Source: Odiellus spinosus (lineage: Eukaryota; Arthropoda; Arachnida; Opiliones; Phalangiidae). Taken from it: a stretch of 64,000 bases of DNA. The notes beneath the pieces are model-generated. The model saw only the letters and a list, made by a program, of their open reading frames with translations, searched no databases and was not told the DNA's origin. Both the position numbers and the translations under genes were made by a program. Within the stretch, counting starts at the first letter, position 1. Each line of letters starts with the position of its first letter. Below are positions 21,057 through 45,065 of the stretch, in pieces. Location: NCBI GenBank assembly GCA_963920705.1, contig OY987238.1, positions 989,606 through 1,053,605 on the forward strand. Reading direction: 5' to 3'.

Positions 21057-24000
21057 ACGTGGGAAATTTATGAATCTCTACTTTTGAAATTTGTGAATCT
21101 ATACTTGGAAAATTTGTGAATCTATGCTTGGGAAATTTGTGAATCTATACTTGGAAAATTTGTGAATCTATACTTGGAAAATTTGTCAATCTATACTTCG
21201 GAAATTTGTGAATCTGTACTTGGGAAATTTGTGAATCTATACTTGGGAAAAATGTGAATCTATACTTGGGAAATTGGTGGATCTATACTTGGGAAATTGG
21301 TGGATCTATACTTGGGAAATTTGTGAATCTATACTTGAGAAATTTGTGAATCTATACTTGGAAAATTTGTGAATCTATACTTGGAAAATTTGTGAATCTA
21401 TACTTGAAAAATTTGTGAATCTATACTTGGAAAATTTGTGAATCTATACTTGGGAAATTTGTGAATCTATACTTGGAACATTTGTGAATCTATACTTGGG
21501 AAATTTGTCAATCTATACTTGGGAAATTTGTGGATCTATGCTTGGGAAATTTGTGAATCTATACTTGGAAAATTTGTGAATCTATACTTGGGAAATTTGT
21601 GAATCTATACTTGGAACATTTGTGAATCTATACTTGGGAAATTTGTCAGTCTATACTTAGGAAATTTGTGGATCTATACTTGGGAAATTTGTAAATCTAT
21701 ACTTCGGAAATTTGTGAATCTATACTTGGAAAATTTGTGAATCTATTTTTGGGAAATTTGTGAATCTATGCTTGGAAAATTTGTGAATCTATACTTGGGA
21801 AATTGGTGGATCTATACTTGGGAAATTTGTGAATCTATACTTGGGAAATTTGTGAATCTATACGTGGGAAATTTATGAATCTCTACTTTTGAAATTTGTG
21901 AGTCTATACTTGGAAAATTTGTGAATCTATGCTTGGGAAATTTGTGAATCTATACTTGGAAAATTTGTGAATCTATACTTGGAAAATTTGTCAATCTATA
22001 CTTCGGAAATTTGTGAATCTGTACTTGGGAAATTTGTGAATCTATACTTGGGAAATATGTGAATCTATACTTGGGAAATTGGTGGATCTATACTTGGGAA
22101 ATTGGTGGATCTATACTTGGGAAATTTGTGAATCTATACTTGAGAAATTTGTGAATCTATACTTGGAAAATTTTTGAATCTATACTTGGAAAATTTGTGA
22201 ATCTATACTTGAAAAATTTGTGAATCTATACTTGGAAAATTTGTGAATCTATACTTGGGAAATTTGTGAATCTATACTTGGAACATTTGTGAATCTATAC
22301 TTGGGAAATTTGTCAATCTATACTTGGGAAATTTGTGGATCTATACTTGGGAAATTTGTGAATCTATACTTCGGAAATTTGTGAATCTATACTTGGGAAA
22401 TTTGTGAATCTATACTTGGAAAATTTGTGAATCTATATTTGGGAAATTTGTGAATCTATACTTGGAAAATTTGTGAATCTATACTTGGGAAATTGGTGGA
22501 TCTATACTTGGGAAATTTGTGAATCTATACTTGGGAAATTTGTGAATCTATACGTGGGAAATTTGTGAATCTCTACTTGGGAAATTTGTGAATCTATACT
22601 TGGAAAATTTGTGAATCTATGCTTGGGAAATTTGTGAATCTATACTTGGAAAATTTGTGAATCTATACTTGGAAAGTTTGTGAATCTATACTTCGGAAAT
22701 TTGTGAATCTGTACTTGGGAAATTTGTGAATCTATACTTGGGAAATATGTGAATCTATACTTGGGAAATTGGTGGATCTATACTTGGGAAATTGGTGGAT
22801 CTATACTTGGGAAATTTGTGAATCTATACTTGAGAAATTTGTGAATCTATACTTGGAAAATTTGTGAATCTATACTTGGAAAATTTGTGAATCTATACTT
22901 GAAAAATTTGTGAATCTATACTTGGAAAATTTGTGAATCTATACTTGGGAAATTTGTGAATCTATACTTGGAACATTTGTGAATCTATACTTGGGAAATT
23001 TGTCAATCTATACTTGGGAAATTTGTGGATCTATGCTTGGGAAATTTGTGAATCTATACTTGGAAAATTTGTGAATCTATACTTGGGAAATTTGTGAATC
23101 TATACTTGGAACATTTGTGAATCTATACTTGGGAAATTTGTCAGTCTATACTTAGGAAATTTGTGGATCTATACTTGGGAAATTTGTGAATCTATACTTC
23201 GGAAATTTGTGAATCTATACTTGGAAAATTTGTGAATCTATTTTTGGGAAATTTGTGAATCTATACTTGGAAAATTTGTGAATCTATACTTGGGAAATTG
23301 GTGGATCTATACTTGGGAAATTTGTGAATCTATACTTGGGAAATTTGTGAATCTATACGTGGGAAATTTATGAATCTCTACTTTTGAAATTTGTGAATCT
23401 ATACTTGGAAAATTTGTGAATCTATGCTTGGGAAATTTGTGAATCTATACTTGGAAAATTTGTGAATCTATACTTGGAAAATTTGTCAATCTATACTTCG
23501 GAAATTTGTGAATCTGTACTTGGGAAATTTGTGAATCTATACTTGGGAAATATGTGAATCTATACTTGGGAAATTGGTGGATCTATACTTGGGAAATTGG
23601 TGGATCTATACTTGGGAAATTTGTGAATCTATACTTGAGAAATTTGTGAATGTATACTTGGAAAATTTGTGAATCTATACTTGGAAAATTTGTGAATCTA
23701 TACTTGAAAAATTTGTGAATCTATACTTGGAAAATTTGTGAATCTATACTTGGGAAATTTGTGAATCTATACTTGGGAAATTTGTGGATCTATACTTGGG
23801 AAATTTGTGAATCTATACTTCGGAAATTTGTGAATCTATACTTGGGAAATTTGTGAATCTATACTTGGAAAATTTGTGAATCTATATTTGGGAAATTTGT
23901 GAATCTATACTTGGAAAATTTGTGAATCTATACTTGGGAAATTGGTGGATCTATACTTGGGAAATTTGTGAATCTATACTTGGGAAATTTGTGAATCTAT
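21057..24000 (+). repeat. Run of 805/690/805/644-bp higher-order blocks
   Basis: ACGTGGG monomers lie at 21,057, 21,862, 22,552, 23,357 and 24,001. The spacings of 805, 690, 805 and 644 bp equal 35, 30, 35 and 28 monomers exactly. The 805-bp blocks begin with the TTTATG/CTCTACTTTTG form of the marker and the 690-bp blocks differ by internal loss or gain of whole monomers. This is the clearest stretch showing the 30- to 35-monomer organisation. Confidence 0.85.
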
Positions 24001-24039
24001 ACGTGGGAAATTTGTGAATCTCTACTTGGGAAATTTGTG

Positions 24040-24706
24040 AATCTTTACTTGGAAAATTTGTGAATCTATGCTTGGGAAATTTGTGAATCTATACTTGGAA
24101 AATTTGTGAATCTATACTTGGAAAATTTGTGAATCTATACTTCGGAAATTTGTGAATCTATACTTGGGAAATTTGTGAATCTATACTTGGGAAATATGTG
24201 AATCTATACTTGGGAAATTGGTGGATCTATACTTGAGAAATTGGTGGATCTATACTTGGGAAATTTGTGAATCTATACTTGGGAAATTTGTGAATCTATA
24301 CTTGGAAAATTTGTGAATCTATACTTGGAAAATTTGTGAATCTATACTTGGAATATTTGTGAATCTATACTTGGGAAATTTGTGAATCTATACTTGGGAA
24401 ATTTGTGAATCTATACTTGGAAAATTTGTGAATCTATACTTGGAAAATTTGTGAATCTATACTTGGAAGATTTTTGAATATATACTAGGAAAATTTGTGA
24501 ATCTATACTTGGAAAATTTGTGAATCTATACTTGGAACATTTGTGAATCTATACTTGGGAAATTTGTCAATCTATACTTGGGAAATTTGTGGATCTATGC
24601 TTGGGAAATTTGTGAATCTATACTTGGAAAATTTGTGAATCTCTACTTGGGAAATTTGTGAATCTTTACTTGGAAAATTTGTGAATCTATGCTTGGGAAA
24701 TTTGTG
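24040..24706 (+). repeat. 667-bp (exactly 29 monomers) duplication, copy 1
   Basis: Two rare variants recur at +667: TTGGAATATTTG (24,351/25,018) and TTGGAAGATTTTTG (24,466/25,133). The offset is exactly 29 x 23. Copy 1 also has a CTTTACTTGG monomer near 24,044 that recurs near 24,665 at the join. Confidence 0.85.
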
Positions 24707-25370
24707 AATCTATACTTGGAAAATTTGTGAATCTATGCTTGGGAAATTTGTGAATCTATACTTGGAAAATTTGTGAATCTATACTTGGAAAATTTGTGAA
24801 TCTATACTTCGGAAATTTGTGAATCTATACTTGGGAAATTTGTGAATCTATACTTGGGAAATATGTGAATCTATACTTGGGAAATTGGTGGATCTATACT
24901 TGAGAAATTGGTGGATCTATACTTGGGAAATTTGTGAATCTATACTTGGGAAATTTGTGAATCTATACTTGGAAAATTTGTGAATCTATACTTGGAAAAT
25001 TTGTGAATCTATACTTGGAATATTTGTGAATCTATACTTGGGAAATTTGTGAATCTATACTTGGGAAATTTGTGAATCTATACTTGGAAAATTTGTGAAT
25101 CTATACTTGGAAAATTTGTGAATCTATACTTGGAAGATTTTTGAATATATACTTGGAAAATTTGTGAATCTATACTTGGAAAATTTGTGAATCTATACTT
25201 GGAACATTTGTGAATCTATACTTGGGAAATTTGTCAATCTATACTTGGGAAATTTGTGGATCTATGCTTGGGAAATTTGTGAATCTATACTTGGAAAATT
25301 TGTGAATCTATACTTGGGAAATTTGTGAATCTATACTTGGAACATTTGTGAATCTATACTTGGGAAATTT
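24707..25370 (+). repeat. 667-bp duplication, copy 2
   Basis: This is the second copy of the 29-monomer unit. The combination of TTGGAATATTTG and TTGGAAGATTTTTG reappears only around 46.8-46.9 kb (the GAAGATTTTTG variant also near 48.57 kb), which links this copy to a dispersed block 21.8 kb downstream. Confidence 0.83.
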
Positions 25371-25820
25371 GTCAGTCTATACTTAGGAAATTTGTGGATC
25401 TATACTTGGGAAATTTGTGAATCTATACTTCGGAAATTTGTGAATCTATACTTGGAAAATTTGTGAATCTATTTTTGGGAATTTTGTGAATCTATACTTG
25501 GAAAATTTGTGAATCTATACTTGGGAAATTGGTGGATCTATACTTGGGAAATTTGTGAATCTATACTTGGGAAATTTGTGAATCTATACGTGGGAAATTT
25601 ATGAATCTCTACTTTTGAAATTTGTGAATCTATACTTGGAAAATTTGTGAATCTATGCTTGGGAAATTTGTGAATCTATACTTGGAAAATTTGTGAATCT
25701 ATACTTGGAAAATTTGTCAATCTATACTTCGGAAATTTGTGAATCTGTACTTGGGAAATTTGTGAATCTATACTTGGGAAATATGTGAATCTATACTTGG
25801 GAAATTGGTGGATCTATACT
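24840..25820 (+). repeat. Dispersed segmental copy, related to about 46.6-47.6 kb
   Basis: Rare variants recur about 21.8 kb downstream: GAATATTTG at 25,018/46,802 (offset 21,784), then GAAGATTTTTG at 25,133/46,940 and GGGAATTTTG at 25,477/47,284 (both offset 21,807). The change from 21,784 to 21,807 is exactly one monomer. The relationship skips the whole 25.8-43 kb nested region, so it is either a long-range duplicate or a pair separated by later expansion between them. Confidence 0.75.
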
Positions 25821-28800
25821 TGGAAAATTTGTGAATCTATGCTTGGGAAATTTGTGAATCTATACTTGGGAAATTTGTGAATCTCTACTTGGGAAATTTG
25901 TGAATCTATACTTGGAAAATTTGTGAATCTATGCTTGGGAAATTTGTGAATCTATACTTGGAAAATTTGTGAATCTATACTTGGGAAATTTGTGAATCTA
26001 TACTTGGAACATTTGTGAATCTATACTTGGGAAATTTGTCAGTCTATACTTAGGAAATTTGTGGATCTATACTTGGGAAATTTGTGAATCTATACTTCGG
26101 AAATTTGTGAATCTATACTTGGAAAATTTGTGAATCTATTTTTGGGAAATTTGTGAATCTATACTTGGAAAATTTGTGAATCTATACTTGGGAAATTGGT
26201 GGATCTATACTTGGGAAATTTGTGAATCTATACTTGGGAAATTTGTGAATCTATACGTGGGAAATTTATGAATCTCTACTTTTGAAATTTGTGAATCTAT
26301 ACTTGGAAAATTTGTGAATCTATGCTTGGGAAATTGGTGGATCTATACTTGAGAAATTGGTGGATCTATACTTGGGAAATTTGTGAATCTATACTTGGGA
26401 AATTTGTGAATCTATACTTGGAAAATTTGTGAATCTATACTTGGAAAATTTGTGAATCTATACTTGGAAAATTTGTGAATCTATACTTGGGAAATTTGTG
26501 AATCTATACTTGGGAAATTTGTGAATCTATACTTGGAAAATTTGTGAATCTATACTTGGAAAATTTGTGAATCTATACTTGGAAAATTTGTGAATCTATA
26601 CTTGGAAAATTTTTGAATATATACTTGGAAAATTTGTGAATCTATACTTGGGAAATTGGTGGATATACTTGGGAAATTGGTGGATCTATACTTGGGAAAT
26701 TTGTGAATCTATATTTGGAAAATTTGTGAATCTATACTTGAAAAATTTGTGAATCTATACTTGGAAAATTTGTGAATCTATACTTGGAAAATTTGTGAAT
26801 CTATACTTGGAAAATTTGTGAATCTATACTTGGAAAATTTGTGAATCTATACTTGGGAAATTTGTGAATCTATTCTTGGGAAATTTGTGAATCTATACTT
26901 GGAAAATTTGTGAATCTATACTTGGAAAATTTGTGAATCTATACTTGAAAAATTTGTGAATCTATACTTGGAAAATTTGTGAATCTATACTTGGGAAATT
27001 TGTGGATCTATACTTGGGAAATTTGTGAATCTATACTTCGGAAATCTGTGAATATTTACTTGGGAAATTTGTGAATCTATACTTGGAAAATTTGTGAATC
27101 TATATTTGGGAAATTTGTGAATCTATACTTGGAAAATTTGTGAATCTATACTTGGGAAATTGGTGGATTTATACTTGGAAAATTTCTGAATCTATACTTG
27201 GGAAAATAGTGGATCTATACTTGGGAAATTGGTGGATCTATACTTGGAAAATTTGTGAATCTATACTTGGGAAATTGGTGGATCTATACTTGGAAAATTT
27301 GTGAATCTATGCTTGGGAAATTTGTGAATCTATACTTGGGAAATTTGTGAATCTCTACTTGGGAAATTTGTGAATCTATACTTGGAAAATTTGTGAATCT
27401 ATGCTTGGGAAATTTGTGAATCTATACTTGGAAAATTTGTGAATCTATACTTGGGAAATTTGTGAATCTATACTTGGAACATTTGTGAATCTATACTTGG
27501 GAAATTTGTCAGTCTATACTTAGGAAATTTGTGGATCTATACTTGGGAAATTTGTGAATCTATACTTCGGAAATTTGTGAATCTATACTTGGAAAATTTG
27601 TGAATCTATTTTTGGGAAATTTGTGAATCTATACTTGGAAAATTTGTGAATCTATACTTGGGAAATTGGTGGATCTATACTTGGGAAATTTGTGAATCTA
27701 TACTTGGGAAATTTGTGAATCTATACGTGGGAAATTTATGAATCTCTACTTTTGAAATTTGTGAATCTATACTTGGAAAATTTGTGAATCTATGCTTGGG
27801 AAATTTGTGAATCTATACTTGGAAAATTTGTGAATCTATACTTGGAAAATTTGTCAATCTATACTTCGGAAATTTGTGAATCTGTACTTGGGAAATTTGT
27901 GAATCTATACTTGGGAAATATGTGAATCTATACTTGGGAAATTGGTGGATCTATACTTGGGAAATTGGTGGATCTATACTTGGGAAATTTGTGAATCTAT
28001 ACTTGAGAAATTTGTGAATCTATACTTGGAAAATTTGTGAATCTATACTTGGAAAATTTGTGAATCTATACTTGAAAAATTTGTGAATCTATACTTGGAA
28101 AATTTGTGAATCTATACTTGGGAAATTTGTGAATCTATACTTGGAACATTTGTGAATCTATACTTGGGAAATTTGTCAATCTATACTTGGGAAATTTGTG
28201 GATCTATGCTTGGGAAATTTGTGAATCTATACTTGGAAAATTTGTGAATCTATACTTGGGAAATTTGTGAATCTATACTTGGAACATTTGTGAATCTATA
28301 CTTGGGAAATTTGTCAGTCTATACTTAGGAAATTTGTGGATCTATACTTGGGAAATTTGTAAATCTATACTTCGGAAATTTGTGAATCTATACTTGGAAA
28401 ATTTGTGAATCTATTTTTGGGAAATTTGTGGATATACTTGGGAAATTGGTGGATCTATACTTGGGAAATTTGTGAATCTATATTTGGAAAATTTGTGAAT
28501 CTATACTTGAAAAATTTGTGAATCTATACTTGGAAAATTTGTGAATCTATACTTGGAAAATTTGTGAATCTATACTTGGAAAATTTGTGAATCTATACTT
28601 GGAAAATTTGTGAATCTATACTTGGGAAATTTGTGAATCTATTCTTGGGAAATTTGTGAATCTATACTTGGAAAATTTGTGAATCTATACTTGGAAAATT
28701 TGTGAATCTATACTTGAAAAATTTGTGAATCTATACTTGGAAAATTTGTGAATCTATACTTGGGAAATTTGTGGATCTATACTTGGGAAATTTGTGAATC

Positions 28801-29024
28801 TATACTTCGGAAATCTGTAAATATTTACTTGGGAAATTTGTGAATCTATACTTGGAAAATTTGTGAATCTATATTTGGGAAATTTGTGAATCTATACTTG
28901 GAAAATTTGTGAATCTATACTTGGGAAATTGGTGGATTTATACTTGGAAAATTTCTGAATCTATACTTGGGAAAATAGTGGATCTATACTTGGGAAATTG
29001 GTGGATCTATACTTGGAAAATTTG
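25786..29024 (+). repeat. 3,239-bp duplication, copy 1 (141 monomers)
   Basis: Markers recur at +3,239: the CTATGCTTGGGAAATTGGTGG junction (26,323/29,562), the 21-bp monomer (26,661/29,900), GGAAAATAGTGG (27,201/30,440 and 28,970/32,209) and the chimeric 21-bp monomer (28,430/31,669). The length is 141 x 23 minus 4, explained by two 21-bp monomers. The left edge is a junction joining GGAAATATG...GGTGGATCTATAC to TTGGAAAATTTG...CTATGC. The match continues about 550 bp past one unit, to about 29,573/32,812. Confidence 0.9.
28430..28450 (+). repeat. Chimeric 21-bp monomer (first of five)
   Basis: Elsewhere the 21-bp monomer GGATATAC is preceded by TTGGGAAATTGGT. Here it follows CTATTTTTGGGAAATTTGT, a combination that must come from an exchange between two different positions. 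It is found only at 28,430, 31,669, 33,139, 38,701 and 40,171, all inside the 3,239/1,470/7,032-bp nested region, so it tags one founding event. Confidence 0.88.
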
Positions 29025-31342
29025 TGAATCTATACTTGGGAAATTGGTGGATCTATACTTGGAAAATTTGTGAATCTATGCTTGGGAAATTTGTGAATCT
29101 ATACTTGGGAAATTTGTGAATCTCTACTTGGGAAATTTGTGAATCTATACTTGGAAAATTTGTGAATCTATGCTTGGGAAATTTGTGAATCTATACTTGG
29201 AAAATTTGTGAATCTATACTTGGGAAATTTGTGAATCTATACTTGGAACATTTGTGAATCTATACTTGGGAAATTTGTCAGTCTATACTTAGGAAATTTG
29301 TGGATCTATACTTGGGAAATTTGTGAATCTATACTTCGGAAATTTGTGAATCTATACTTGGAAAATTTGTGAATCTATTTTTGGGAAATTTGTGAATCTA
29401 TACTTGGAAAATTTGTGAATCTATACTTGGGAAATTGGTGGATCTATACTTGGGAAATTTGTGAATCTATACTTGGGAAATTTGTGAATCTATACGTGGG
29501 AAATTTATGAATCTCTACTTTTGAAATTTGTGAATCTATACTTGGAAAATTTGTGAATCTATGCTTGGGAAATTGGTGGATCTATACTTGAGAAATTGGT
29601 GGATCTATACTTGGGAAATTTGTGAATCTATACTTGGGAAATTTGTGAATCTATACTTGGAAAATTTGTGAATCTATACTTGGAAAATTTGTGAATCTAT
29701 ACTTGGAAAATTTGTGAATCTATACTTGGGAAATTTGTGAATCTATACTTGGGAAATTTGTGAATCTATACTTGGAAAATTTGTGAATCTATACTTGGAA
29801 AATTTGTGAATCTATACTTGGAAAATTTGTGAATCTATACTTGGAAAATTTTTGAATATATACTTGGAAAATTTGTGAATCTATACTTGGGAAATTGGTG
29901 GATATACTTGGGAAATTGGTGGATCTATACTTGGGAAATTTGTGAATCTATATTTGGAAAATTTGTGAATCTATACTTGAAAAATTTGTGAATCTATACT
30001 TGGAAAATTTGTGAATCTATACTTGGAAAATTTGTGAATCTATACTTGGAAAATTTGTGAATCTATACTTGGAAAATTTGTGAATCTATACTTGGGAAAT
30101 TTGTGAATCTATTCTTGGGAAATTTGTGAATCTATACTTGGAAAATTTGTGAATCTATACTTGGAAAATTTGTGAATCTATACTTGAAAAATTTGTGAAT
30201 CTATACTTGGAAAATTTGTGAATCTATACTTGGGAAATTTGTGGATCTATACTTGGGAAATTTGTGAATCTATACTTCGGAAATCTGTGAATATTTACTT
30301 GGGAAATTTGTGAATCTATACTTGGAAAATTTGTGAATCTATATTTGGGAAATTTGTGAATCTATACTTGGAAAATTTGTGAATCTATACTTGGGAAATT
30401 GGTGGATTTATACTTGGAAAATTTCTGAATCTATACTTGGGAAAATAGTGGATCTATACTTGGGAAATTGGTGGATCTATACTTGGAAAATTTGTGAATC
30501 TATACTTGGGAAATTGGTGGATCTATACTTGGAAAATTTGTGAATCTATGCTTGGGAAATTTGTGAATCTATACTTGGGAAATTTGTGAATCTCTACTTG
30601 GGAAATTTGTGAATCTATACTTGGAAAATTTGTGAATCTATGCTTGGGAAATTTGTGAATCTATACTTGGAAAATTTGTGAATCTATACTTGGGAAATTT
30701 GTGAATCTATACTTGGAACATTTGTGAATCTATACTTGGGAAATTTGTCAGTCTATACTTAGGAAATTTGTGGATCTATACTTGGGAAATTTGTGAATCT
30801 ATACTTCGGAAATTTGTGAATCTATACTTGGAAAATTTGTGAATCTATTTTTGGGAAATTTGTGAATCTATACTTGGAAAATTTGTGAATCTATACTTGG
30901 GAAATTGGTGGATCTATACTTGGGAAATTTGTGAATCTATACTTGGGAAATTTGTGAATCTATACGTGGGAAATTTATGAATCTCTACTTTTGAAATTTG
31001 TGAATCTATACTTGGAAAATTTGTGAATCTATGCTTGGGAAATTTGTGAATCTATACTTGGAAAATTTGTGAATCTATACTTGGAAAATTTGTCAATCTA
31101 TACTTCGGAAATTTGTGAATCTGTACTTGGGAAATTTGTGAATCTATACTTGGGAAATATGTGAATCTATACTTGGGAAATTGGTGGATCTATACTTGGG
31201 AAATTGGTGGATCTATACTTGGGAAATTTGTGAATCTATACTTGAGAAATTTGTGAATCTATACTTGGAAAATTTGTGAATCTATACTTGGAAAATTTGT
31301 GAATCTATACTTGAAAAATTTGTGAATCTATACTTGGAAAAT

Positions 31343-32812
31343 TTGTGAATCTATACTTGGGAAATTTGTGAATCTATACTTGGAACATTTGTGAATCTAT
31401 ACTTGGGAAATTTGTCAATCTATACTTGGGAAATTTGTGGATCTATGCTTGGGAAATTTGTGAATCTATACTTGGAAAATTTGTGAATCTATACTTGGGA
31501 AATTTGTGAATCTATACTTGGAACATTTGTGAATCTATACTTGGGAAATTTGTCAGTCTATACTTAGGAAATTTGTGGATCTATACTTGGGAAATTTGTA
31601 AATCTATACTTCGGAAATTTGTGAATCTATACTTGGAAAATTTGTGAATCTATTTTTGGGAAATTTGTGGATATACTTGGGAAATTGGTGGATCTATACT
31701 TGGGAAATTTGTGAATCTATATTTGGAAAATTTGTGAATCTATACTTGAAAAATTTGTGAATCTATACTTGGAAAATTTGTGAATCTATACTTGGAAAAT
31801 TTGTGAATCTATACTTGGAAAATTTGTGAATCTATACTTGGAAAATTTGTGAATCTATACTTGGGAAATTTGTGAATCTATTCTTGGGAAATTTGTGAAT
31901 CTATACTTGGAAAATTTGTGAATCTATACTTGGAAAATTTGTGAATCTATACTTGAAAAATTTGTGAATCTATACTTGGAAAATTTGTGAATCTATACTT
32001 GGGAAATTTGTGGATCTATACTTGGGAAATTTGTGAATCTATACTTCGGAAATCTGTAAATATTTACTTGGGAAATTTGTGAATCTATACTTGGAAAATT
32101 TGTGAATCTATATTTGGGAAATTTGTGAATCTATACTTGGAAAATTTGTGAATCTATACTTGGGAAATTGGTGGATTTATACTTGGAAAATTTCTGAATC
32201 TATACTTGGGAAAATAGTGGATCTATACTTGGGAAATTGGTGGATCTATACTTGGAAAATTTGTGAATCTATACTTGGGAAATTGGTGGATCTATACTTG
32301 GAAAATTTGTGAATCTATGCTTGGGAAATTTGTGAATCTATACTTGGGAAATTTGTGAATCTCTACTTGGGAAATTTGTGAATCTATACTTGGAAAATTT
32401 GTGAATCTATGCTTGGGAAATTTGTGAATCTATACTTGGAAAATTTGTGAATCTATACTTGGGAAATTTGTGAATCTATACTTGGAACATTTGTGAATCT
32501 ATACTTGGGAAATTTGTCAGTCTATACTTAGGAAATTTGTGGATCTATACTTGGGAAATTTGTGAATCTATACTTCGGAAATTTGTGAATCTATACTTGG
32601 AAAATTTGTGAATCTATTTTTGGGAAATTTGTGAATCTATACTTGGAAAATTTGTGAATCTATACTTGGGAAATTGGTGGATCTATACTTGGGAAATTTG
32701 TGAATCTATACTTGGGAAATTTGTGAATCTATACGTGGGAAATTTATGAATCTCTACTTTTGAAATTTGTGAATCTATACTTGGAAAATTTGTGAATCTA
32801 TGCTTGGGAAAT
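31343..32812 (+). repeat. 1,470-bp tandem duplication, copy A1 (64 monomers)
   Basis: This is directly followed by A2. Marker pairs at +1,470 are the chimeric 21-bp monomer (31,669/33,139) and GGAAAATAGTGG (32,209/33,679). The length is 64 x 23 minus 2. The exchange point is confined to about 20 bp around 32,809-32,831, where both possible parents read the same. Confidence 0.92.
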
Positions 32813-34282
32813 TTGTGAATCTATACTTGGGAAATTTGTGAATCTATACTTGGAACATTTGTGAATCTATACTTGGGAAATTTGTCAATCTATACTTGGG
32901 AAATTTGTGGATCTATGCTTGGGAAATTTGTGAATCTATACTTGGAAAATTTGTGAATCTATACTTGGGAAATTTGTGAATCTATACTTGGAACATTTGT
33001 GAATCTATACTTGGGAAATTTGTCAGTCTATACTTAGGAAATTTGTGGATCTATACTTGGGAAATTTGTAAATCTATACTTCGGAAATTTGTGAATCTAT
33101 ACTTGGAAAATTTGTGAATCTATTTTTGGGAAATTTGTGGATATACTTGGGAAATTGGTGGATCTATACTTGGGAAATTTGTGAATCTATATTTGGAAAA
33201 TTTGTGAATCTATACTTGAAAAATTTGTGAATCTATACTTGGAAAATTTGTGAATCTATACTTGGAAAATTTGTGAATCTATACTTGGAAAATTTGTGAA
33301 TCTATACTTGGAAAATTTGTGAATCTATACTTGGGAAATTTGTGAATCTATTCTTGGGAAATTTGTGAATCTATACTTGGAAAATTTGTGAATCTATACT
33401 TGGAAAATTTGTGAATCTATACTTGAAAAATTTGTGAATCTATACTTGGAAAATTTGTGAATCTATACTTGGGAAATTTGTGGATCTATACTTGGGAAAT
33501 TTGTGAATCTATACTTCGGAAATCTGTAAATATTTACTTGGGAAATTTGTGAATCTATACTTGGAAAATTTGTGAATCTATATTTGGGAAATTTGTGAAT
33601 CTATACTTGGAAAATTTGTGAATCTATACTTGGGAAATTGGTGGATTTATACTTGGAAAATTTCTGAATCTATACTTGGGAAAATAGTGGATCTATACTT
33701 GGGAAATTGGTGGATCTATACTTGGAAAATTTGTGAATCTATACTTGGGAAATTGGTGGATCTATACTTGGAAAATTTGTGAATCTATGCTTGGGAAATT
33801 TGTGAATCTATACTTGGGAAATTTGTGAATCTCTACTTGGGAAATTTGTGAATCTATACTTGGAAAATTTGTGAATCTATGCTTGGGAAATTTGTGAATC
33901 TATACTTGGAAAATTTGTGAATCTATACTTGGGAAATTTGTGAATCTATACTTGGAACATTTGTGAATCTATACTTGGGAAATTTGTCAGTCTATACTTA
34001 GGAAATTTGTGGATCTATACTTGGGAAATTTGTGAATCTATACTTCGGAAATTTGTGAATCTATACTTGGAAAATTTGTGAATCTATTTTTGGGAAATTT
34101 GTGAATCTATACTTGGAAAATTTGTGAATCTATACTTGGGAAATTGGTGGATCTATACTTGGGAAATTTGTGAATCTATACTTGGGAAATTTGTGAATCT
34201 ATACGTGGGAAATTTATGAATCTCTACTTTTGAAATTTGTGAATCTATACTTGGAAAATTTGTGAATCTATGCTTGGGAAAT
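32813..34282 (+). repeat. 1,470-bp tandem duplication, copy A2
   Basis: This is a head-to-tail copy of 31,343-32,812. After about 34,300 it diverges (TTGGAAAATTTG instead of TTGGGAAATTTG followed by TTGGAACATTTG). Confidence 0.92.
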
Positions 34283-37200
34283 TTGTGAATCTATACTTGG
34301 AAAATTTGTGAATCTATACTTGGAAAATTTGTCAATCTATACTTCGGAAATTTGTGAATCTGTACTTGGGAAATTTGTGAATCTATACTTGGGAAATATG
34401 TGAATCTATACTTGGGAAATTGGTGGATCTATACTTGGGAAATTGGTGGATCTATACTTGGGAAATTTGTGAATCTATACTTGAGAAATTTGTGAATCTA
34501 TACTTGGAAAATTTGTGAATCTATACTTGGAAAATTTGTGAATCTATACTTGAAAAATTTGTGAATCTATACTTGGAAAATTTGTGAATCTATACTTGGG
34601 AAATTTGTGAATCTATACTTGGAACATTTGTGAATCTATACTTGGGAAATTTGTCAGTCTATACTTAGGAAATTTGTGAATCTCTACTTGGGAAATTTGT
34701 GAATCTATACTTGGAAAATTTGTGAATCTATGCTTGGGAAATTTGTGAATCTATACTTGGAAAATTTGTGAATCTATACTTGGGAAATTTGTGAATCTAT
34801 ACTTGGAACATTTGTGAATCTATACTTGGGAAATTTGTCAGTCTATACTTAGGAAATTTGTGGATCTATACTTGGGAAATTTGTGAATCTATACTTCGGA
34901 AATTTGTGAATCTATACTTGGAAAATTTGTGAATCTATTTTTGGGAAATTTGTGAATCTATACTTGGAAAATTTGTGAATCTATACTTGGGAAATTGGTG
35001 GATCTATACTTGGGAAATTTGTGAATCTATACTTGGGAAATTTGTGAATCTATACGTGGGAAATTTATGAATCTCTACTTTTGAAATTTGTGAATCTATA
35101 CTTGGAAAATTTGTGAATCTATGCTTGGGAAATTTGTGAATCTATACTTGGAAAATTTGTGAATCTATACTTGGAAAATTTGTCAATCTATACTTCGGAA
35201 ATTTGTGAATCTGTACTTGGGAAATTTGTGAATCTATACTTGGGAAATATGTGAATCTATACTTGGGAAATTGGTGGATCTATACTTGGGAAATTGGTGG
35301 ATCTATACTTGGGAAATTTGTGAATCTATACTTGAGAAATTTGTGAATCTATACTTGGAAAATTTGTGAATCTATACTTGGAAAATTTGTGAATCTATAC
35401 TTGAAAAATTTGTGAATCTATACTTGGAAAATTTGTGAATCTATACTTGGGAAATTTGTGAATCTATACTTGGAACATTTGTGAATCTATACTTGGGAAA
35501 TTTGTCAATCTATACTTGGGAAATTTGTGGATCTATGCTTGGGAAATTTGTGAATCTATACTTGGAAAATTTGTGAATCTATACTTGGGAAATTTGTGAA
35601 TCTATACTTGGAACATTTGTGAATCTATACTTGGGAAATTTGTCAGTCTATACTTAGGAAATTTGTGGATCTATACTTGGGAAATTTGTAAATCTATACT
35701 TCGGAAATTTGTGAATCTATACTTGGAAAATTTGTGAATCTATTTTTGGGAAATTTGTGAATCTATGCTTGGAAAATTTGTGAATCTATACTTGGGAAAT
35801 TGGTGGATCTATACTTGGGAAATTTGTGAATCTATACTTGGGAAATTTGTGAATCTATACGTGGGAAATTTATGAATCTCTACTTTTGAAATTTGTGAGT
35901 CTATACTTGGAAAATTTGTGAATCTATGCTTGGGAAATTTGTGAATCTATACTTGGAAAATTTGTGAATCTATACTTGGAAAATTTGTCAATCTATACTT
36001 CGGAAATTTGTGAATCTGTACTTGGGAAATTTGTGAATCTATACTTGGGAAATATGTGAATCTATACTTGGGAAATTGGTGGATCTATACTTGGAAAATT
36101 TGTGAATCTATGCTTGGGAAATTTGTGAATCTATACTTGGGAAATTTGTGAATCTCTACTTGGGAAATTTGTGAATCTATACTTGGAAAATTTGTGAATC
36201 TATGCTTGGGAAATTTGTGAATCTATACTTGGAAAATTTGTGAATCTATACTTGGGAAATTTGTGAATCTATACTTGGAACATTTGTGAATCTATACTTG
36301 GGAAATTTGTCAGTCTATACTTAGGAAATTTGTGGATCTATACTTGGGAAATTTGTGAATCTATACTTCGGAAATTTGTGAATCTATACTTGGAAAATTT
36401 GTGAATCTATTTTTGGGAAATTTGTGAATCTATACTTGGAAAATTTGTGAATCTATACTTGGGAAATTGGTGGATCTATACTTGGGAAATTTGTGAATCT
36501 ATACTTGGGAAATTTGTGAATCTATACGTGGGAAATTTATGAATCTCTACTTTTGAAATTTGTGAATCTATACTTGGAAAATTTGTGAATCTATGCTTGG
36601 GAAATTGGTGGATCTATACTTGAGAAATTGGTGGATCTATACTTGGGAAATTTGTGAATCTATACTTGGGAAATTTGTGAATCTATACTTGGAAAATTTG
36701 TGAATCTATACTTGGAAAATTTGTGAATCTATACTTGGAAAATTTGTGAATCTATACTTGGGAAATTTGTGAATCTATACTTGGGAAATTTGTGAATCTA
36801 TACTTGGAAAATTTGTGAATCTATACTTGGAAAATTTGTGAATCTATACTTGGAAAATTTGTGAATCTATACTTGGAAAATTTTTGAATATATACTTGGA
36901 AAATTTGTGAATCTATACTTGGGAAATTGGTGGATATACTTGGGAAATTGGTGGATCTATACTTGGGAAATTTGTGAATCTATATTTGGAAAATTTGTGA
37001 ATCTATACTTGAAAAATTTGTGAATCTATACTTGGAAAATTTGTGAATCTATACTTGGAAAATTTGTGAATCTATACTTGGAAAATTTGTGAATCTATAC
37101 TTGGAAAATTTGTGAATCTATACTTGGGAAATTTGTGAATCTATTCTTGGGAAATTTGTGAATCTATACTTGGAAAATTTGTGAATCTATACTTGGAAAA

Positions 37201-38374
37201 TTTGTGAATCTATACTTGAAAAATTTGTGAATCTATACTTGGAAAATTTGTGAATCTATACTTGGGAAATTTGTGGATCTATACTTGGGAAATTTGTGAA
37301 TCTATACTTCGGAAATCTGTGAATATTTACTTGGGAAATTTGTGAATCTATACTTGGAAAATTTGTGAATCTATATTTGGGAAATTTGTGAATCTATACT
37401 TGGAAAATTTGTGAATCTATACTTGGGAAATTGGTGGATTTATACTTGGAAAATTTCTGAATCTATACTTGGGAAAATAGTGGATCTATACTTGGGAAAT
37501 TGGTGGATCTATACTTGGAAAATTTGTGAATCTATACTTGGGAAATTGGTGGATCTATACTTGGAAAATTTGTGAATCTATGCTTGGGAAATTTGTGAAT
37601 CTATACTTGGGAAATTTGTGAATCTCTACTTGGGAAATTTGTGAATCTATACTTGGAAAATTTGTGAATCTATGCTTGGGAAATTTGTGAATCTATACTT
37701 GGAAAATTTGTGAATCTATACTTGGGAAATTTGTGAATCTATACTTGGAACATTTGTGAATCTATACTTGGGAAATTTGTCAGTCTATACTTAGGAAATT
37801 TGTGGATCTATACTTGGGAAATTTGTGAATCTATACTTCGGAAATTTGTGAATCTATACTTGGAAAATTTGTGAATCTATTTTTGGGAAATTTGTGAATC
37901 TATACTTGGAAAATTTGTGAATCTATACTTGGGAAATTGGTGGATCTATACTTGGGAAATTTGTGAATCTATACTTGGGAAATTTGTGAATCTATACGTG
38001 GGAAATTTATGAATCTCTACTTTTGAAATTTGTGAATCTATACTTGGAAAATTTGTGAATCTATGCTTGGGAAATTTGTGAATCTATACTTGGAAAATTT
38101 GTGAATCTATACTTGGAAAATTTGTCAATCTATACTTCGGAAATTTGTGAATCTGTACTTGGGAAATTTGTGAATCTATACTTGGGAAATATGTGAATCT
38201 ATACTTGGGAAATTGGTGGATCTATACTTGGGAAATTGGTGGATCTATACTTGGGAAATTTGTGAATCTATACTTGAGAAATTTGTGAATCTATACTTGG
38301 AAAATTTGTGAATCTATACTTGGAAAATTTGTGAATCTATACTTGAAAAATTTGTGAATCTATACTTGGAAAAT

Positions 38375-39844
38375 TTGTGAATCTATACTTGGGAAATTTG
38401 TGAATCTATACTTGGAACATTTGTGAATCTATACTTGGGAAATTTGTCAATCTATACTTGGGAAATTTGTGGATCTATGCTTGGGAAATTTGTGAATCTA
38501 TACTTGGAAAATTTGTGAATCTATACTTGGGAAATTTGTGAATCTATACTTGGAACATTTGTGAATCTATACTTGGGAAATTTGTCAGTCTATACTTAGG
38601 AAATTTGTGGATCTATACTTGGGAAATTTGTAAATCTATACTTCGGAAATTTGTGAATCTATACTTGGAAAATTTGTGAATCTATTTTTGGGAAATTTGT
38701 GGATATACTTGGGAAATTGGTGGATCTATACTTGGGAAATTTGTGAATCTATATTTGGAAAATTTGTGAATCTATACTTGAAAAATTTGTGAATCTATAC
38801 TTGGAAAATTTGTGAATCTATACTTGGAAAATTTGTGAATCTATACTTGGAAAATTTGTGAATCTATACTTGGAAAATTTGTGAATCTATACTTGGGAAA
38901 TTTGTGAATCTATTCTTGGGAAATTTGTGAATCTATACTTGGAAAATTTGTGAATCTATACTTGGAAAATTTGTGAATCTATACTTGAAAAATTTGTGAA
39001 TCTATACTTGGAAAATTTGTGAATCTATACTTGGGAAATTTGTGGATCTATACTTGGGAAATTTGTGAATCTATACTTCGGAAATCTGTAAATATTTACT
39101 TGGGAAATTTGTGAATCTATACTTGGAAAATTTGTGAATCTATATTTGGGAAATTTGTGAATCTATACTTGGAAAATTTGTGAATCTATACTTGGGAAAT
39201 TGGTGGATTTATACTTGGAAAATTTCTGAATCTATACTTGGGAAAATAGTGGATCTATACTTGGGAAATTGGTGGATCTATACTTGGAAAATTTGTGAAT
39301 CTATACTTGGGAAATTGGTGGATCTATACTTGGAAAATTTGTGAATCTATGCTTGGGAAATTTGTGAATCTATACTTGGGAAATTTGTGAATCTCTACTT
39401 GGGAAATTTGTGAATCTATACTTGGAAAATTTGTGAATCTATGCTTGGGAAATTTGTGAATCTATACTTGGAAAATTTGTGAATCTATACTTGGGAAATT
39501 TGTGAATCTATACTTGTAACATTTGTGAATCTATACTTGGGAAATTTGTCAGTCTATACTTAGGAAATTTGTGGATCTATACTTGGGAAATTTGTGAATC
39601 TATACTTCGGAAATTTGTGAATCTATACTTGGAAAATTTGTGAATCTATTTTTGGGAAATTTGTGAATCTATACTTGGAAAATTTGTGAATCTATACTTG
39701 GGAAATTGGTGGATCTATACTTGGGAAATTTGTGAATCTATACTTGGGAAATTTGTGAATCTATACGTGGGAAATTTATGAATCTCTACTTTTGAAATTT
39801 GTGAATCTATACTTGGAAAATTTGTGAATCTATGCTTGGGAAAT
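38375..39844 (+). repeat. 1,470-bp unit, copy B1 (carried by the 7,032-bp copy B)
   Basis: This is A1 shifted by 7,032 bp, with the chimeric 21-bp monomer at 38,701 and GGAAAATAGTGG at 39,241. It contains the T at 39,517 that separates it from its counterpart. Confidence 0.9.
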
Positions 39845-41314
39845 TTGTGAATCTATACTTGGGAAATTTGTGAATCTATACTTGGAACATTTGTGAATCT
39901 ATACTTGGGAAATTTGTCAATCTATACTTGGGAAATTTGTGGATCTATGCTTGGGAAATTTGTGAATCTATACTTGGAAAATTTGTGAATCTATACTTGG
40001 GAAATTTGTGAATCTATACTTGGAACATTTGTGAATCTATACTTGGGAAATTTGTCAGTCTATACTTAGGAAATTTGTGGATCTATACTTGGGAAATTTG
40101 TAAATCTATACTTCGGAAATTTGTGAATCTATACTTGGAAAATTTGTGAATCTATTTTTGGGAAATTTGTGGATATACTTGGGAAATTGGTGGATCTATA
40201 CTTGGGAAATTTGTGAATCTATATTTGGAAAATTTGTGAATCTATACTTGAAAAATTTGTGAATCTATACTTGGAAAATTTGTGAATCTATACTTGGAAA
40301 ATTTGTGAATCTATACTTGGAAAATTTGTGAATCTATACTTGGAAAATTTGTGAATCTATACTTGGGAAATTTGTGAATCTATTCTTGGGAAATTTGTGA
40401 ATCTATACTTGGAAAATTTGTGAATCTATACTTGGAAAATTTGTGAATCTATACTTGAAAAATTTGTGAATCTATACTTGGAAAATTTGTGAATCTATAC
40501 TTGGGAAATTTGTGGATCTATACTTGGGAAATTTGTGAATCTATACTTCGGAAATCTGTAAATATTTACTTGGGAAATTTGTGAATCTATACTTGGAAAA
40601 TTTGTGAATCTATATTTGGGAAATTTGTGAATCTATACTTGGAAAATTTGTGAATCTATACTTGGGAAATTGGTGGATTTATACTTGGAAAATTTCTGAA
40701 TCTATACTTGGGAAAATAGTGGATCTATACTTGGGAAATTGGTGGATCTATACTTGGAAAATTTGTGAATCTATACTTGGGAAATTGGTGGATCTATACT
40801 TGGAAAATTTGTGAATCTATGCTTGGGAAATTTGTGAATCTATACTTGGGAAATTTGTGAATCTCTACTTGGGAAATTTGTGAATCTATACTTGGAAAAT
40901 TTGTGAATCTATGCTTGGGAAATTTGTGAATCTATACTTGGAAAATTTGTGAATCTATACTTGGGAAATTTGTGAATCTATACTTGGAACATTTGTGAAT
41001 CTATACTTGGGAAATTTGTCAGTCTATACTTAGGAAATTTGTGGATCTATACTTGGGAAATTTGTGAATCTATACTTCGGAAATTTGTGAATCTATACTT
41101 GGAAAATTTGTGAATCTATTTTTGGGAAATTTGTGAATCTATACTTGGAAAATTTGTGAATCTATACTTGGGAAATTGGTGGATCTATACTTGGGAAATT
41201 TGTGAATCTATACTTGGGAAATTTGTGAATCTATACGTGGGAAATTTATGAATCTCTACTTTTGAAATTTGTGAATCTATACTTGGAAAATTTGTGAATC
41301 TATGCTTGGGAAAT
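39845..41314 (+). repeat. 1,470-bp unit, copy B2
   Basis: This is A2 shifted by 7,032 bp, with the chimeric 21-bp monomer at 40,171 and GGAAAATAGTGG at 40,711. Its presence shows that the 1,470-bp duplication happened before the 7,032-bp one. Confidence 0.9.
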
Positions 41315-42316
41315 TTGTGAATCTATACTTGGAAAATTTGTGAATCTATACTTGGAAAATTTGTCAATCTATACTTCGGAAATTTGTGAATCTGTACTTG
41401 GGAAATTTGTGAATCTATACTTGGGAAATATGTGAATCTATACTTGGGAAATTGGTGGATCTATACTTGGGAAATTGGTGGATCTATACTTGGGAAATTT
41501 GTGAATCTATACTTGAGAAATTTGTGAATCTATACTTGGAAAATTTGTGAATCTATACTTGGAAAATTTGTGAATCTATACTTGAAAAATTTGTGAATCT
41601 ATACTTGGAAAATTTGTGAATCTATACTTGGGAAATTTGTGAATCTATACTTGGAACATTTGTGAATCTATACTTGGGAAATTTGTCAGTCTATACTTAG
41701 GAAATTTGTGAATCTCTACTTGGGAAATTTGTGAATCTATACTTGGAAAATTTGTGAATCTATGCTTGGGAAATTTGTGAATCTATACTTGGAAAATTTG
41801 TGAATCTATACTTGGGAAATTTGTGAATCTATACTTGGAACATTTGTGAATCTATACTTGGGAAATTTGTCAGTCTATACTTAGGAAATTTGTGGATCTA
41901 TACTTGGGAAATTTGTGAATCTATACTTCGGAAATTTGTGAATCTATACTTGGAAAATTTGTGAATCTATTTTTGGGAAATTTGTGAATCTATACTTGGA
42001 AAATTTGTGAATCTATACTTGGGAAATTGGTGGATCTATACTTGGGAAATTTGTGAATCTATACTTGGGAAATTTGTGAATCTATACGTGGGAAATTTAT
42101 GAATCTCTACTTTTGAAATTTGTGAATCTATACTTGGAAAATTTGTGAATCTATGCTTGGGAAATTTGTGAATCTATACTTGGAAAATTTGTGAATCTAT
42201 ACTTGGAAAATTTGTCAATCTATACTTCGGAAATTTGTGAATCTGTACTTGGGAAATTTGTGAATCTATACTTGGGAAATATGTGAATCTATACTTGGGA
42301 AATTGGTGGATCTATA

Positions 42317-43212
42317 CTTGGGAAATTGGTGGATCTATACTTGGGAAATTTGTGAATCTATACTTGAGAAATTTGTGAATCTATACTTGGAAAATTTGTG
42401 AATCTATACTTGGAAAATTTGTGAATCTATACTTGAAAAATTTGTGAATCTATACTTGGAAAATTTGTGAATCTATACTTGGGAAATTTGTGAATCTATA
42501 CTTGGAACATTTGTGAATCTATACTTGGGAAATTTGTCAATCTATACTTGGGAAATTTGTGGATCTATGCTTGGGAAATTTGTGAATCTATACTTGGAAA
42601 ATTTGTGAATCTATACTTGGGAAATTTGTGAATCTATACTTGGAACATTTGTGAATCTATACTTGGGAAATTTGTCAGTCTATACTTAGGAAATTTGTGG
42701 ATCTATACTTGGGAAATTTGTAAATCTATACTTCGGAAATTTGTGAATCTATACTTGGAAAATTTGTGAATCTATTTTTGGGAAATTTGTGAATCTATGC
42801 TTGGAAAATTTGTGAATCTATACTTGGGAAATTGGTGGATCTATACTTGGGAAATTTGTGAATCTATACTTGGGAAATTTGTGAATCTATACGTGGGAAA
42901 TTTATGAATCTCTACTTTTGAAATTTGTGAGTCTATACTTGGAAAATTTGTGAATCTATGCTTGGGAAATTTGTGAATCTATACTTGGAAAATTTGTGAA
43001 TCTATACTTGGAAAATTTGTCAATCTATACTTCGGAAATTTGTGAATCTGTACTTGGGAAATTTGTGAATCTATACTTGGGAAATATGTGAATCTATACT
43101 TGGGAAATTGGTGGATCTATACTTGGGAAATTGGTGGATCTATACTTGGGAAATTTGTGAATCTATACTTGAGAAATTTGTGAATCTATACTTGGAAAAT
43201 TTGTGAATCTAT
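42317..43212 (+). repeat. 1,058-bp (exactly 46 monomers) offset repeat, copy 1
   Basis: This recurs at +1,058 as 43,375-44,270. A rare CTATGCTTGGAAAA monomer lies at 42,793 and 43,851, and the TTGAGAAATTTG run near 42,360 recurs near 43,420. It overlaps the end of the 7,032-bp copy B. Between the copies, 43,213-43,374 lacks several monomers (the TTGAAAAA group) compared with the usual order. Confidence 0.83.
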
Positions 43213-43374
43213 ACTTGGGAAATTTGTGAATCTATACTTGGAACATTTGTGAATCTATACTTGGGAAATTTGTCAATCTATACTTGGGAAATTTGTGGAT
43301 CTATACTTGGGAAATTTGTGAATCTATACTTCGGAAATTTGTGAATCTATACTTGGGAAATTTGTGAATCTATA

Positions 43375-44270
43375 CTTGGGAAATTGGTGGATCTATACTT
43401 GGGAAATTTGTGAATCTATACTTGAGAAATTTGTGAATCTATACTTGGAAAATTTGTGAATCTATACTTGGAAAATTTGTGAATCTATACTTGAAAAATT
43501 TGTGAATCTATACTTGGAAAATTTGTGAATCTATACTTGGGAAATTTGTGAATCTATACTTGGAACATTTGTGAATCTATACTTGGGAAATTTGTCAATC
43601 TATACTTGGGAAATTTGTGGATCTATGCTTGGGAAATTTGTGAATCTATACTTGGAAAATTTGTGAATCTATACTTGGGAAATTTGTGAATCTATACTTG
43701 GAACATTTGTGAATCTATACTTGGGAAATTTGTCAGTCTATACTTAGGAAATTTGTGGATCTATACTTGGGAAATTTGTAAATCTATACTTCGGAAATTT
43801 GTGAATCTATACTTGGAAAATTTGTGAATCTATTTTTGGGAAATTTGTGAATCTATGCTTGGAAAATTTGTGAATCTATACTTGGGAAATTGGTGGATCT
43901 ATACTTGGGAAATTTGTGAATCTATACTTGGGAAATTTGTGAATCTATACGTGGGAAATTTATGAATCTCTACTTTTGAAATTTGTGAGTCTATACTTGG
44001 AAAATTTGTGAATCTATGCTTGGGAAATTTGTGAATCTATACTTGGAAAATTTGTGAATCTATACTTGGAAAATTTGTCAATCTATACTTCGGAAATTTG
44101 TGAATCTGTACTTGGGAAATTTGTGAATCTATACTTGGGAAATATGTGAATCTATACTTGGGAAATTGGTGGATCTATACTTGGGAAATTGGTGGATCTA
44201 TACTTGGGAAATTTGTGAATCTATACTTGAGAAATTTGTGAATCTATACTTGGAAAATTTGTGAATCTAT
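43375..44270 (+). repeat. 1,058-bp offset repeat, copy 2
   Basis: This is the second copy of 42,317-43,212. It continues into the normal order (TTGAAAAA, TTGGAACA, GTCAATC, GTGGATC, TTCGG), which copy 1 has in shortened form. Confidence 0.82.
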
Positions 44271-44699
44271 ACTTGGAAAATTTGTGAATCTATACTTGAA
44301 AAATTTGTGAATCTATACTTGGAAAATTTGTGAATCTATACTTGGGAAATTTGTGAATCTATACTTGGAACATTTGTGAATCTATACTTGGGAAATTTGT
44401 CAATCTATACTTGGGAAATTTGTGGATCTATACTTGGGAAATTTGTGAATCTATACTTCGGAAATTTGTGAATCTATACTTGGGAAATTTGTGAATCTAT
44501 ACTTGGAAAATTTGTGAATCTATATTTGGGAAATTTGTGAATCTATACTTGGAAAATTTGTGAATCTATACTTGGGAAATTGGTGGATCTATACTTGGGA
44601 AATTTGTGAATCTATACTTGGGAAATTTGTGAATCTATACGTGGGAAATTTGTGAATCTCTACTTGGGAAATTTGTGAATCTATACTTGGAAAATTTGT

Positions 44700-44720
44700 G
44701 AATCTGCTTGGGAAATTTGT
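44700..44720 (+). repeat. 21-bp monomer (GAATCTGC form)
   Basis: Two bases are missing from GAATCTATGC. A related short monomer, GAATCTTC, lies at 45,066-45,086, exactly 366 bp (16 x 23 minus 2) downstream. CTGTACTTGGG also recurs at +366 (44,795/45,161). This marks a 16-monomer tandem duplication spanning about 44,700-45,430. Confidence 0.85.
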
Positions 44721-45065
44721 GAATCTATACTTGGAAAATTTGTGAATCTATACTTGGAAAATTTGTGAATCTATACTTCGGAAATTTGTGAATCTGTACT
44801 TGGGAAATTTGTGAATCTATACTTGGGAAATATGTGAATCTATACTTGGGAAATTGGTGGATCTATACTTGGGAAATTGGTGGATCTATACTTGGGAAAT
44901 TTGTGAATCTATACTTGAGAAATTTGTGAATCTATACTTGGAAAATTTGTGAATCTATACTTGGAAAATTTGTGAATCTATACTTGAAAAATTTGTGAAT
45001 CTATACTTGGAAAATTTGTGAATCTATACTTGGGAAATTTGTGAATCTATACTTGGAAAATTTGT
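44700..45065 (+). repeat. 366-bp tandem duplication, copy 1 (16 monomers)
   Basis: Copy 2 is 45,066-45,431. Each copy starts at a shortened monomer and contains TTCGG, CTGTAC, GGAAATATG, two GGTGGATC monomers, TTGAGAAA and TTGAAAAA in the same order. The first monomer differs (GAATCTGC against GAATCTTC). Confidence 0.83.

Follow-up and report, generated by a model that had tools for sequence, protein, structure and literature searches.

The systems closest to the locus described here come from human centromeric DNA. For the alpha-satellite D1Z5 (BAC BX248407), the source describes domains and subdomains that arose from accumulated unequal crossovers, with monomers of 171 bp that form a 1,866-bp higher-order repeat present in 55 copies (PMC2853522). 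Human centromeric higher-order repeats are reported to be products of saltatory amplification that is megabase-scale and extends across haplotypes of estimated age (PMC11062924). In an experiment with human cells, break-induced replication is reported to expand alpha-satellite arrays in dependence on RAD52 and PIF1, and tandem blocks are rapidly gained or lost by homologous repair (PMC11034957).

The cluster of nested duplications in Odiellus spinosus resembles D1Z5 in its adjacent near-identical repeats attributable to unequal exchange, its nested domains and the local nature of the exchange (PMC2853522), but its monomers have only 23 bp and its units are irregular and mostly present in two copies. 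Like the saltatory human repeats, it consists of young similar blocks within an older array (PMC11062924); here, however, the events are kilobase-scale and seen in one assembly. Break-induced replication could leave the product found in the cluster, but in contrast to the experimental case the cluster is known from its sequence alone, in which replication-based repair and crossover look alike.

Results

The 23-bp satellite array

The window, i.e. the whole 64-kb stretch of DNA that was analysed, is a single array of a 23-bp satellite from end to end:

1..64,000, forward strand, 23-bp satellite array with consensus monomer GAATCTATACTTGGGAAATTTGT, found by TRF and monomer decomposition

TRF counted 2785 copies with 91% matches over the window, and the decomposition gave 2,785 monomers, 2752 of which are 23 bp long. 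Open reading frames of at least 150 amino acids with both ends inside the 64-kb window were not found. Being long, arranged head to tail and built from a short, non-coding monomer, the array is satellite DNA. It is part of a megabase-scale satellite region on a 15.9-Mb contig of the 443-Mb assembly: the 23-bp satellite was present in 12 of 12 contig samples taken between base 1 and 1.8 Mb, and the samples at 2 and 3 Mb contained a more diverged form of it. The mitochondrial COX1 has no stop when translated with the invertebrate code, which points to an invertebrate source, probably an arthropod. There were no publications on this satellite among the matches listed in a literature search that was only partly specific to 23-bp repeats.

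A scan of 264 kb of contiguous array (offsets 200-20,000, ungapped, runs of at least 400 bp) yielded 60 tandem duplications with many and varied periods. Just two of them exceed 2.3 copies, one with a period of 667 bp (4.8 copies) and one with 782 bp (3.0 copies), and the array does not have the regular higher-order-repeat organization of the alpha-satellite type.

Blocks and junctions of the cluster

The duplicated cluster reads as the block string F A A B C A B C Y:

25,629..25,783, forward strand, left flank F (X-end), the same sequence as 42,932-43,086, with which block C2 ends
25,784..29,022, forward strand, block A1, 3,239 bp = 141 monomers, 0 differences to A2 and A3
29,023..32,261, forward strand, block A2, 3,239 bp, 0 differences to A1 and A3
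32,262..33,731, forward strand, block B1, 1,470 bp = 64 monomers, 1 difference to B2
33,732..36,054, forward strand, block C1, 2,323 bp, 0 differences to C2
36,055..39,293, forward strand, block A3, 3,239 bp, opens the second 7,032-bp copy (306 monomers)
39,294..40,763, forward strand, block B2, 1,470 bp, private substitution at 39,517
40,764..43,086, forward strand, block C2, 2,323 bp, closes the second 7,032-bp copy
43,087..43,126, forward strand, 40 bp matching the first 40 bp of A, at the right-hand edge of the 7,032 run

Exact runs were found at offset 3,239 (25,784-29,574 versus 29,023-32,813) and at offset 1,470 (31,339-32,830 versus 32,809-34,300), and the run at offset 7,032 (29,023-36,094 versus 36,055-43,126) is interrupted by a single mismatch at 32,485/39,517. 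The nested duplications are real, with coordinates that the preliminary description gave correctly to a few bases, and the runs bear out its statement that the 1,470-bp pair is carried intact inside both 7,032-bp copies. The four longest exact matches in the 264 kb are one each at offsets 3,239 and 10,271 (= 3,239 + 7,032) plus two at 7,032. With 1,492 bp, the match at offset 1,470 is the joint 21st longest, so pairs like this one are common. Since the exact matches of random in-register pairs (3,745 of 4,000 kept after dropping those below 70% identity) have a median length of 19 bp and a 99th percentile of 116, the long runs are not due to chance alone. Together with the next 40 bp, F forms a 195-bp exact homology (25,629-25,823 versus 42,932-43,126), which belongs to a recurrent family and has 21 exact copies in the 264 kb.

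Divergence had been expected to be lowest between the 7,032-bp copies and highest between the 3,239-bp copies. We counted 0/3,239, 0/1,470 and 1/7,032 differences, with overlapping 95% limits of 0-0.114% (3,239), 0-0.251% (1,470) and 0.0004-0.079% (7,032). Taken literally, this is the very outcome named as speaking against the proposed order, as only the 7,032 pair has a difference; a single substitution, however, carries no weight. The substitution at 39,517 in B2 is unique among the seven copies of the 552-bp segment e. Because the compared copies of A, B and C are identical at every other site, divergence has no dating power here, and dating by it was rejected. Nor can the 3,239 step be dated directly, since no substitution separates A1, A2 and A3.

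The cluster is marked by four junctions:

28,430..28,450, forward strand, 21-bp monomer at the chimeric junction u/c, located by a 138-bp exact search of the assembly; the other copies of the junction start at 31,669, 33,139, 38,701 and 40,171
26,335..26,336, forward strand, private junction c/v (= e/v, e/W), also before 29,575 and 36,607
32,813..32,814, forward strand, private junction c/u (= e/q, e/u) from the 1,470 event, recurring before 39,846
36,054..36,055, forward strand, private junction F/e of the 7,032 event, recurring before 25,784

Segment e is the tail of c, hence the alternative names of c/v and c/u. As 138-bp sequences, F/e, u/c and c/u occur exactly 2, 5 and 2 times in the 443-Mb assembly, all inside the cluster. 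Tested at 60-230 bp in the 264 kb, u/c gave the same five copies and c/v three copies only; at 92 bp, c/u has a third copy at position 149,182 relative to the window. Elsewhere in the window, 7 more exact copies of block v have 16-17 mismatches each in the 200 bp to their left, and the natural flanks of v and u are unlike those in the cluster.

The 21-bp monomer, which reads as a common monomer minus 2 bp, was rejected as a chimeric marker: it occurs 23 times in the window, 89 times in the 264 kb and 8 times in the region. Its left context was kept. The chimeric junction described earlier is thus real and present in five copies, with the left context, not the 21-bp monomer, as its private part. 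All five A and B blocks contain it, and it is therefore old, in line with the early place it had been given.

Order of the duplications

The order chimeric junction, then 3,239, then 1,470, then 7,032 had been put forward as the simplest one. It turned out to be one of three equally short duplication-only histories, which differ only in the place of 3,239. The 3,239 addition could come before or after 7,032 because the extra copy fronts only one of the two 7,032-bp copies. Histories with six events were listed in a restricted, not exhaustive enumeration (assumed ancestor, only junctions of the final string, at most 44 tokens, duplications alone in the last two/three steps), which returned 32. 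The 1,470 event precedes the 7,032 event in all of these and in all three shortest histories; given that each duplication is a single event, this part of the order follows. With it and the old junction, two elements of the proposed order are supported, whereas the place of 3,239 before 1,470 and that of 7,032 at the end are not.

Each private junction is formed once in 10 of the 32 histories, all of which end with 3,239; the remaining 22 end with 7,032, and all of them form F/e twice. Indeed, a final 7,032 event must make F/e twice, because this junction also lies at 25,784 and nowhere else in the assembly. The first enumeration, which was confined to limited paths per state and first-visit states, limits lifted in the one above, had given 85 labelled six-event histories with four de novo junctions in 40, five in 40 and six in 5. 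Altogether, the claim that the order of the duplications can be read is only partly supported. The 3,239 event is moderately favoured as the last one, and the newest surviving event is thus probably not the largest.

Length and recency

Copy length had also been said to increase with recency. Across all 60 tandem duplications, length and divergence were indeed negatively correlated (rho -0.52, p = 2e-5), where all p values are nominal because the rows include repeats of one event, such as both 1,470 pairs. The negative trend stems from periods below 700 bp. For duplications of at least 700 bp across the 264 kb, length and divergence were not significantly related (rho +0.24, n = 35, p = 0.17), and rho was +0.14 (n = 28, p = 0.49) for periods of at least 1,000 bp and -0.31 (n = 20, p = 0.18) for those of at least 1,400 bp.

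Arrays simulated without an age trend, in a model that was unfitted and fits the array poorly, gave a mean rho of -0.26 (range -0.70 to +0.49) for 12 small arrays and of -0.22 (range -0.39 to 0.00) for 12 larger ones, 9 of which outgrew 300 kb. The observed -0.52 lies below all 12 larger arrays (lowest -0.39) and below 8 of the 12 small ones, the other four being at -0.521, -0.534, -0.600 and -0.696. At periods of at least 700 bp, the simulated rho was negative in 12 of 12 arrays, with a mean of -0.31, so that the model fails to reproduce the observed +0.24 as well. A size trend is thus possible without any age rule, because long old duplications in the simulation vanish from view sooner. As a rule, "longer is newer" was rejected, given the +0.24 at 700 bp and above and a trend confined to shorter periods; what stands is an overall trend stronger than in most simulations, which speaks for the preliminary description.

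Discussion

The nested blocks exist and are fresh, as is ordinary for satellite DNA. With whole-monomer lengths and homologous breakpoints, they have the marks of unequal homologous exchange. Junctional homology had a median of 56 bp in 18 fresh tandem duplications versus 22 bp in 2,834 random in-register pairs (of 3,000, those below 70% identity being dropped; Mann-Whitney p = 0.0005); the 18 are what is left of the 60 when divergence of at least 0.3%, runs shorter than the period and more than 2.25 copies are excluded and equal pairs merged. Unequal in-register exchange, as in ordinary satellite turnover, is the likely mechanism; the product might equally come from break-induced replication, gene conversion or another repair route.

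We lean, with slightly better than even confidence, to the view that the cluster is a recent local turnover patch in the megabase-scale 23-bp satellite array with the following history. Sister or homologous strands would have exchanged unequally with the 23-bp monomers in register, which is why the three named duplications comprise whole monomers (64, 141 and 306), and the exchange points would lie in identical stretches longer than random. A 1,769-bp event may have made u/c, a further event c/v, a loss on the left side F/e and the 1,470 event c/u. The 7,032-bp duplication would then have arisen by homologous exchange between two copies of F and, last, an extra 3,239-bp A would have been added in the first 7,032 copy via the 552-bp homology e.

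A 7,032 duplication at the very end, either in the order of the preliminary description or in a variant with 1,470 before 3,239, is a serious but rather unlikely alternative. It takes as many duplication steps as the other histories, and 22 of the 32 six-event histories close in this way. As a last step it would act through 40 bp of identity (29,023 versus 43,087), which lies inside the normal range of the array and is not in itself odd, since junctional identity is at most 43 bp in 8 of the 18 fresh duplications. Against it speaks the double origin of F/e in 22 of 22 such histories: random in-register draws recreated an existing 230-bp joint in only 0.13-0.36% of cases (39/29,002 with a local pool and 99/27,917 with a whole-array pool). 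Shorter joints were recreated in 2.1% (92 bp) and 0.31% (138 bp) of the draws from the local pool and in 16.6% and 2.9%, respectively, of those from the whole array. Divergence lends this order no support. A 7,032 event before the extra A, in turn, could have used the 195-bp exact homology that was already there, or about 640 bp if a few mismatches are allowed. A 195-bp homologous exchange is rare under a random-break model (0.56%), and the odds for 3,239 as last event are about 2-4 to 1 under a purely random-break model; they rise to about 16-41 to 1 with the array's own share of long homology, which is 1/18 fresh duplications, that one being the cluster's own 3,239 event.

The same 195-bp homology would serve a duplication via F that spanned A A B C (10,271 bp); the second copy would then have lost one A, with 7,032 as the remainder. 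Contraction between identical 3,239-bp copies should be easy, and this course is found among the seven-event histories with four de novo junctions. It needs one event beyond the shortest histories, however, and the lost A left no trace, and we consider it improbable. Assemblers err where identity between copies extends over 2-3 kb or more, as it does between the block copies, and the copy number of the near-identical blocks might therefore be misassembled. This appears very unlikely: the substitution at 39,517 distinguishes the two 7,032 copies, and 60 tandem duplications, many of them more diverged, lie along the same 264 kb.

Returning to the history with 3,239 last, we see about an even chance that private junctions act here as markers of unique events which order unequal exchanges without substitutions and place a 3,239 re-duplication after the larger 7,032 event. 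The cluster is also a warning: nesting alone yields neither a full order nor a size trend, and with losses and homologous re-duplication in play, several histories are equally short. At the same time it is a clean, small example of satellite growth via local unequal exchange; its junctions can be traced through later copies, and three of the four are confined to the cluster in the whole assembly.

Structure of the duplicated cluster

Maximal exact matches of at least 250 bp were listed for the window and of at least 400 bp for the surrounding 264 kb. The four longest in the 264 kb have offsets of 3,239, 7,032 and the two added together; by length, the match at 1,470 shares 21st place. The region reads F A A B C A B C Y, where F is the left flank and Y what follows the last block:

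25784..29022, block A1
29023..32261, block A2
32262..33731, block B1
33732..36054, block C1
36055..39293, block A3
39294..40763, block B2
40764..43086, block C2

A is 3,239 bp, B 1,470 bp and C 2,323 bp long, and A+B+C makes 7,032. The three A copies are identical, as are the two C copies, and B1 and B2 differ at a single site (39,517), where the base is unlike that in all six remaining copies of the 552-bp segment around it. The duplications of 3,239, 1,470 and 7,032 bp comprise 141, 64 and 306 whole monomers, 21-bp monomers included. The nested structure reported in the preliminary description is real and was well described. A further large fresh pair occupies window 1-11,576 (offset 6,411, with 2 mismatches in 6,300; its start lies roughly 1.1 kb beyond the left edge of the window), and a 1,516-bp pair at 10,118-13,224 overlaps its right end.

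A finer subdivision uses blocks v, c, t, u and Z; the final 552 bp of c are called e, and F forms the end of Z. Four junctions, compared over 138 bp, are private: within the 264 kb they occur in the cluster only.

Private junctions (138 bp; whole-assembly counts from exact searches, all copies in the cluster)
u|c: 5 copies in 264 kb, 5 in the whole assembly; the chimeric junction of the preliminary description, present in each A and each B block
c|v: 3 copies in 264 kb
c|u: 2 copies in 264 kb, 2 in the whole assembly
F|e: 2 copies in 264 kb, 2 in the whole assembly

Block v has seven more exact copies in the window, the left side of each with 16-17 mismatches per 200 bp. Block u has six more beyond the A and B blocks, whose right flanks match the cluster's at 177-178 of 200 positions in a gap-aware comparison; two natural right flanks of u, compared together, show 3 differences in about 200. 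Because the flanks of these other copies differ from the cluster's, c|v and u|c are derived.

The array and its surroundings

The window is a 23-bp satellite throughout (2,785 monomers, 2,752 exactly 23 bp; monomer decomposition, TRF) and has no ORF of at least 150 aa. It lies at 989,606-1,053,605 of a 15.87-Mb contig, C16, in an assembly of 443 Mb and 286 contigs. In 20 samples of about 3 kb along C16, the satellite was reverse-oriented in 6/6 between base 1 and 803 kb and forward in 6/6 at 1.2-1.8 Mb. It was diverged in the samples at 2 Mb and 3 Mb, and virtually missing from 6/6 at 5 Mb and beyond. Its strand switches outside the window, between C16 848,000 and 889,606 (reverse at 845,001-848,000, forward from 889,606).

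The 264 kb are all satellite except for a single insert of some 4 kb and a single short stretch that is inverted within the forward array (C16 ~1,071,878-1,072,051, in piece L020). The insert (piece L023, ~5,806-10,000; ~C16:1,099,400-1,103,750) holds an open 912-aa frame with endonuclease and reverse transcriptase domains above the Pfam cut-off; a 250-aa frame upstream had no Pfam match above its cut-off. We read the element as a non-LTR-type retrotransposon inserted into the satellite. A search for mitochondrial COX1 placed 9 of 13 match rows on a single long contig, C17, in several places; these are probably nuclear copies.

Order of the duplications

Tandem-square collapsing gave three shortest duplication-only histories; longer ones also exist.

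Shortest histories
1: 1,470, then 7,032, then 3,239
2: 1,470, then 3,239, then 7,032
3: 3,239, then 1,470, then 7,032

A second, restricted search, which took a presumed natural order of the blocks as its ancestor and permitted losses, found 32 six-event histories and none shorter; c|u is older than the 7,032 event in all 32. Ten make every private junction once, and all ten end with 3,239, whereas 22 end with 7,032 and make F|e twice. This split arises because the partners of the 7,032 exchange differ: before the extra A, two F copies are identical over 195 bases (some 640 bp if a few mismatches are allowed); as the last event, C|Y meets the A1/A2 boundary with 40 bp identical.

Of 29,002 random in-register joints drawn from the local pool, 39 reproduced a 230-bp joint already present; for the whole-array pool the count was 99 of 27,917. 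Shorter joints were recreated more often, and a 195-bp exact tract occurs in 0.56% of random pairs. Random joints and tracts alone give odds of about 2-4 to 1 for 3,239 as the last event; by our arithmetic these become about 16-41 to 1 when the frequency of long-homology events in the array itself is used, 1/18, the one being this cluster's 3,239 event. Because of these odds we favour the 3,239 duplication as the last event, with slightly better than even confidence. That the 7,032 duplication came last, as in the 22 histories that make F|e twice, is a rather unlikely alternative; a duplication of 10,271 bp with a later loss is less likely still, and error takes the small remaining share. The order proposed in the preliminary description (chimeric junction, 3,239, 1,470, 7,032) stands in part only: it survives among the shortest histories, and its final step is not the one we favour.

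That description also had copy length rising with recency. Across 60 tandem duplications in the 264 kb (period 391-7,032), length correlates with divergence at -0.52; among the 35 that reach 700 bp or more, the value is +0.24 (p = 0.17). Simulating 24 arrays with lengths independent of age gave mean correlations of -0.26 (12 small arrays) and -0.22 (12 larger ones). In the larger simulations median divergence was 0.455 and 0.478% for the two short classes and 0.202 and 0.103% for the two long ones, a contrast that we read as survivorship. The fit is poor in both directions: 20 of 24 simulations gave a less negative correlation than the one observed overall, and the observed value for at least 700 bp exceeds 12 of 12 larger ones. 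We conjecture that older short-period patches supply the excess negative correlation.

Mechanism and precedent

Junctional identity has a median of 56 bp (n=18) versus 22 bp for random in-register pairs (n=2,834; p = 0.0005). With lengths in whole monomers and junctional identity longer than random, the cluster fits unequal homologous exchange. Break-induced replication could yield the same product; text in PMC11034957 reports that it requires RAD52 and PIF1 for extensive change in human arrays. The closest precedent is the alpha-satellite domains that a passage of PMC2853522 ascribes to accumulated unequal crossovers, and the cluster is ordinary biology.
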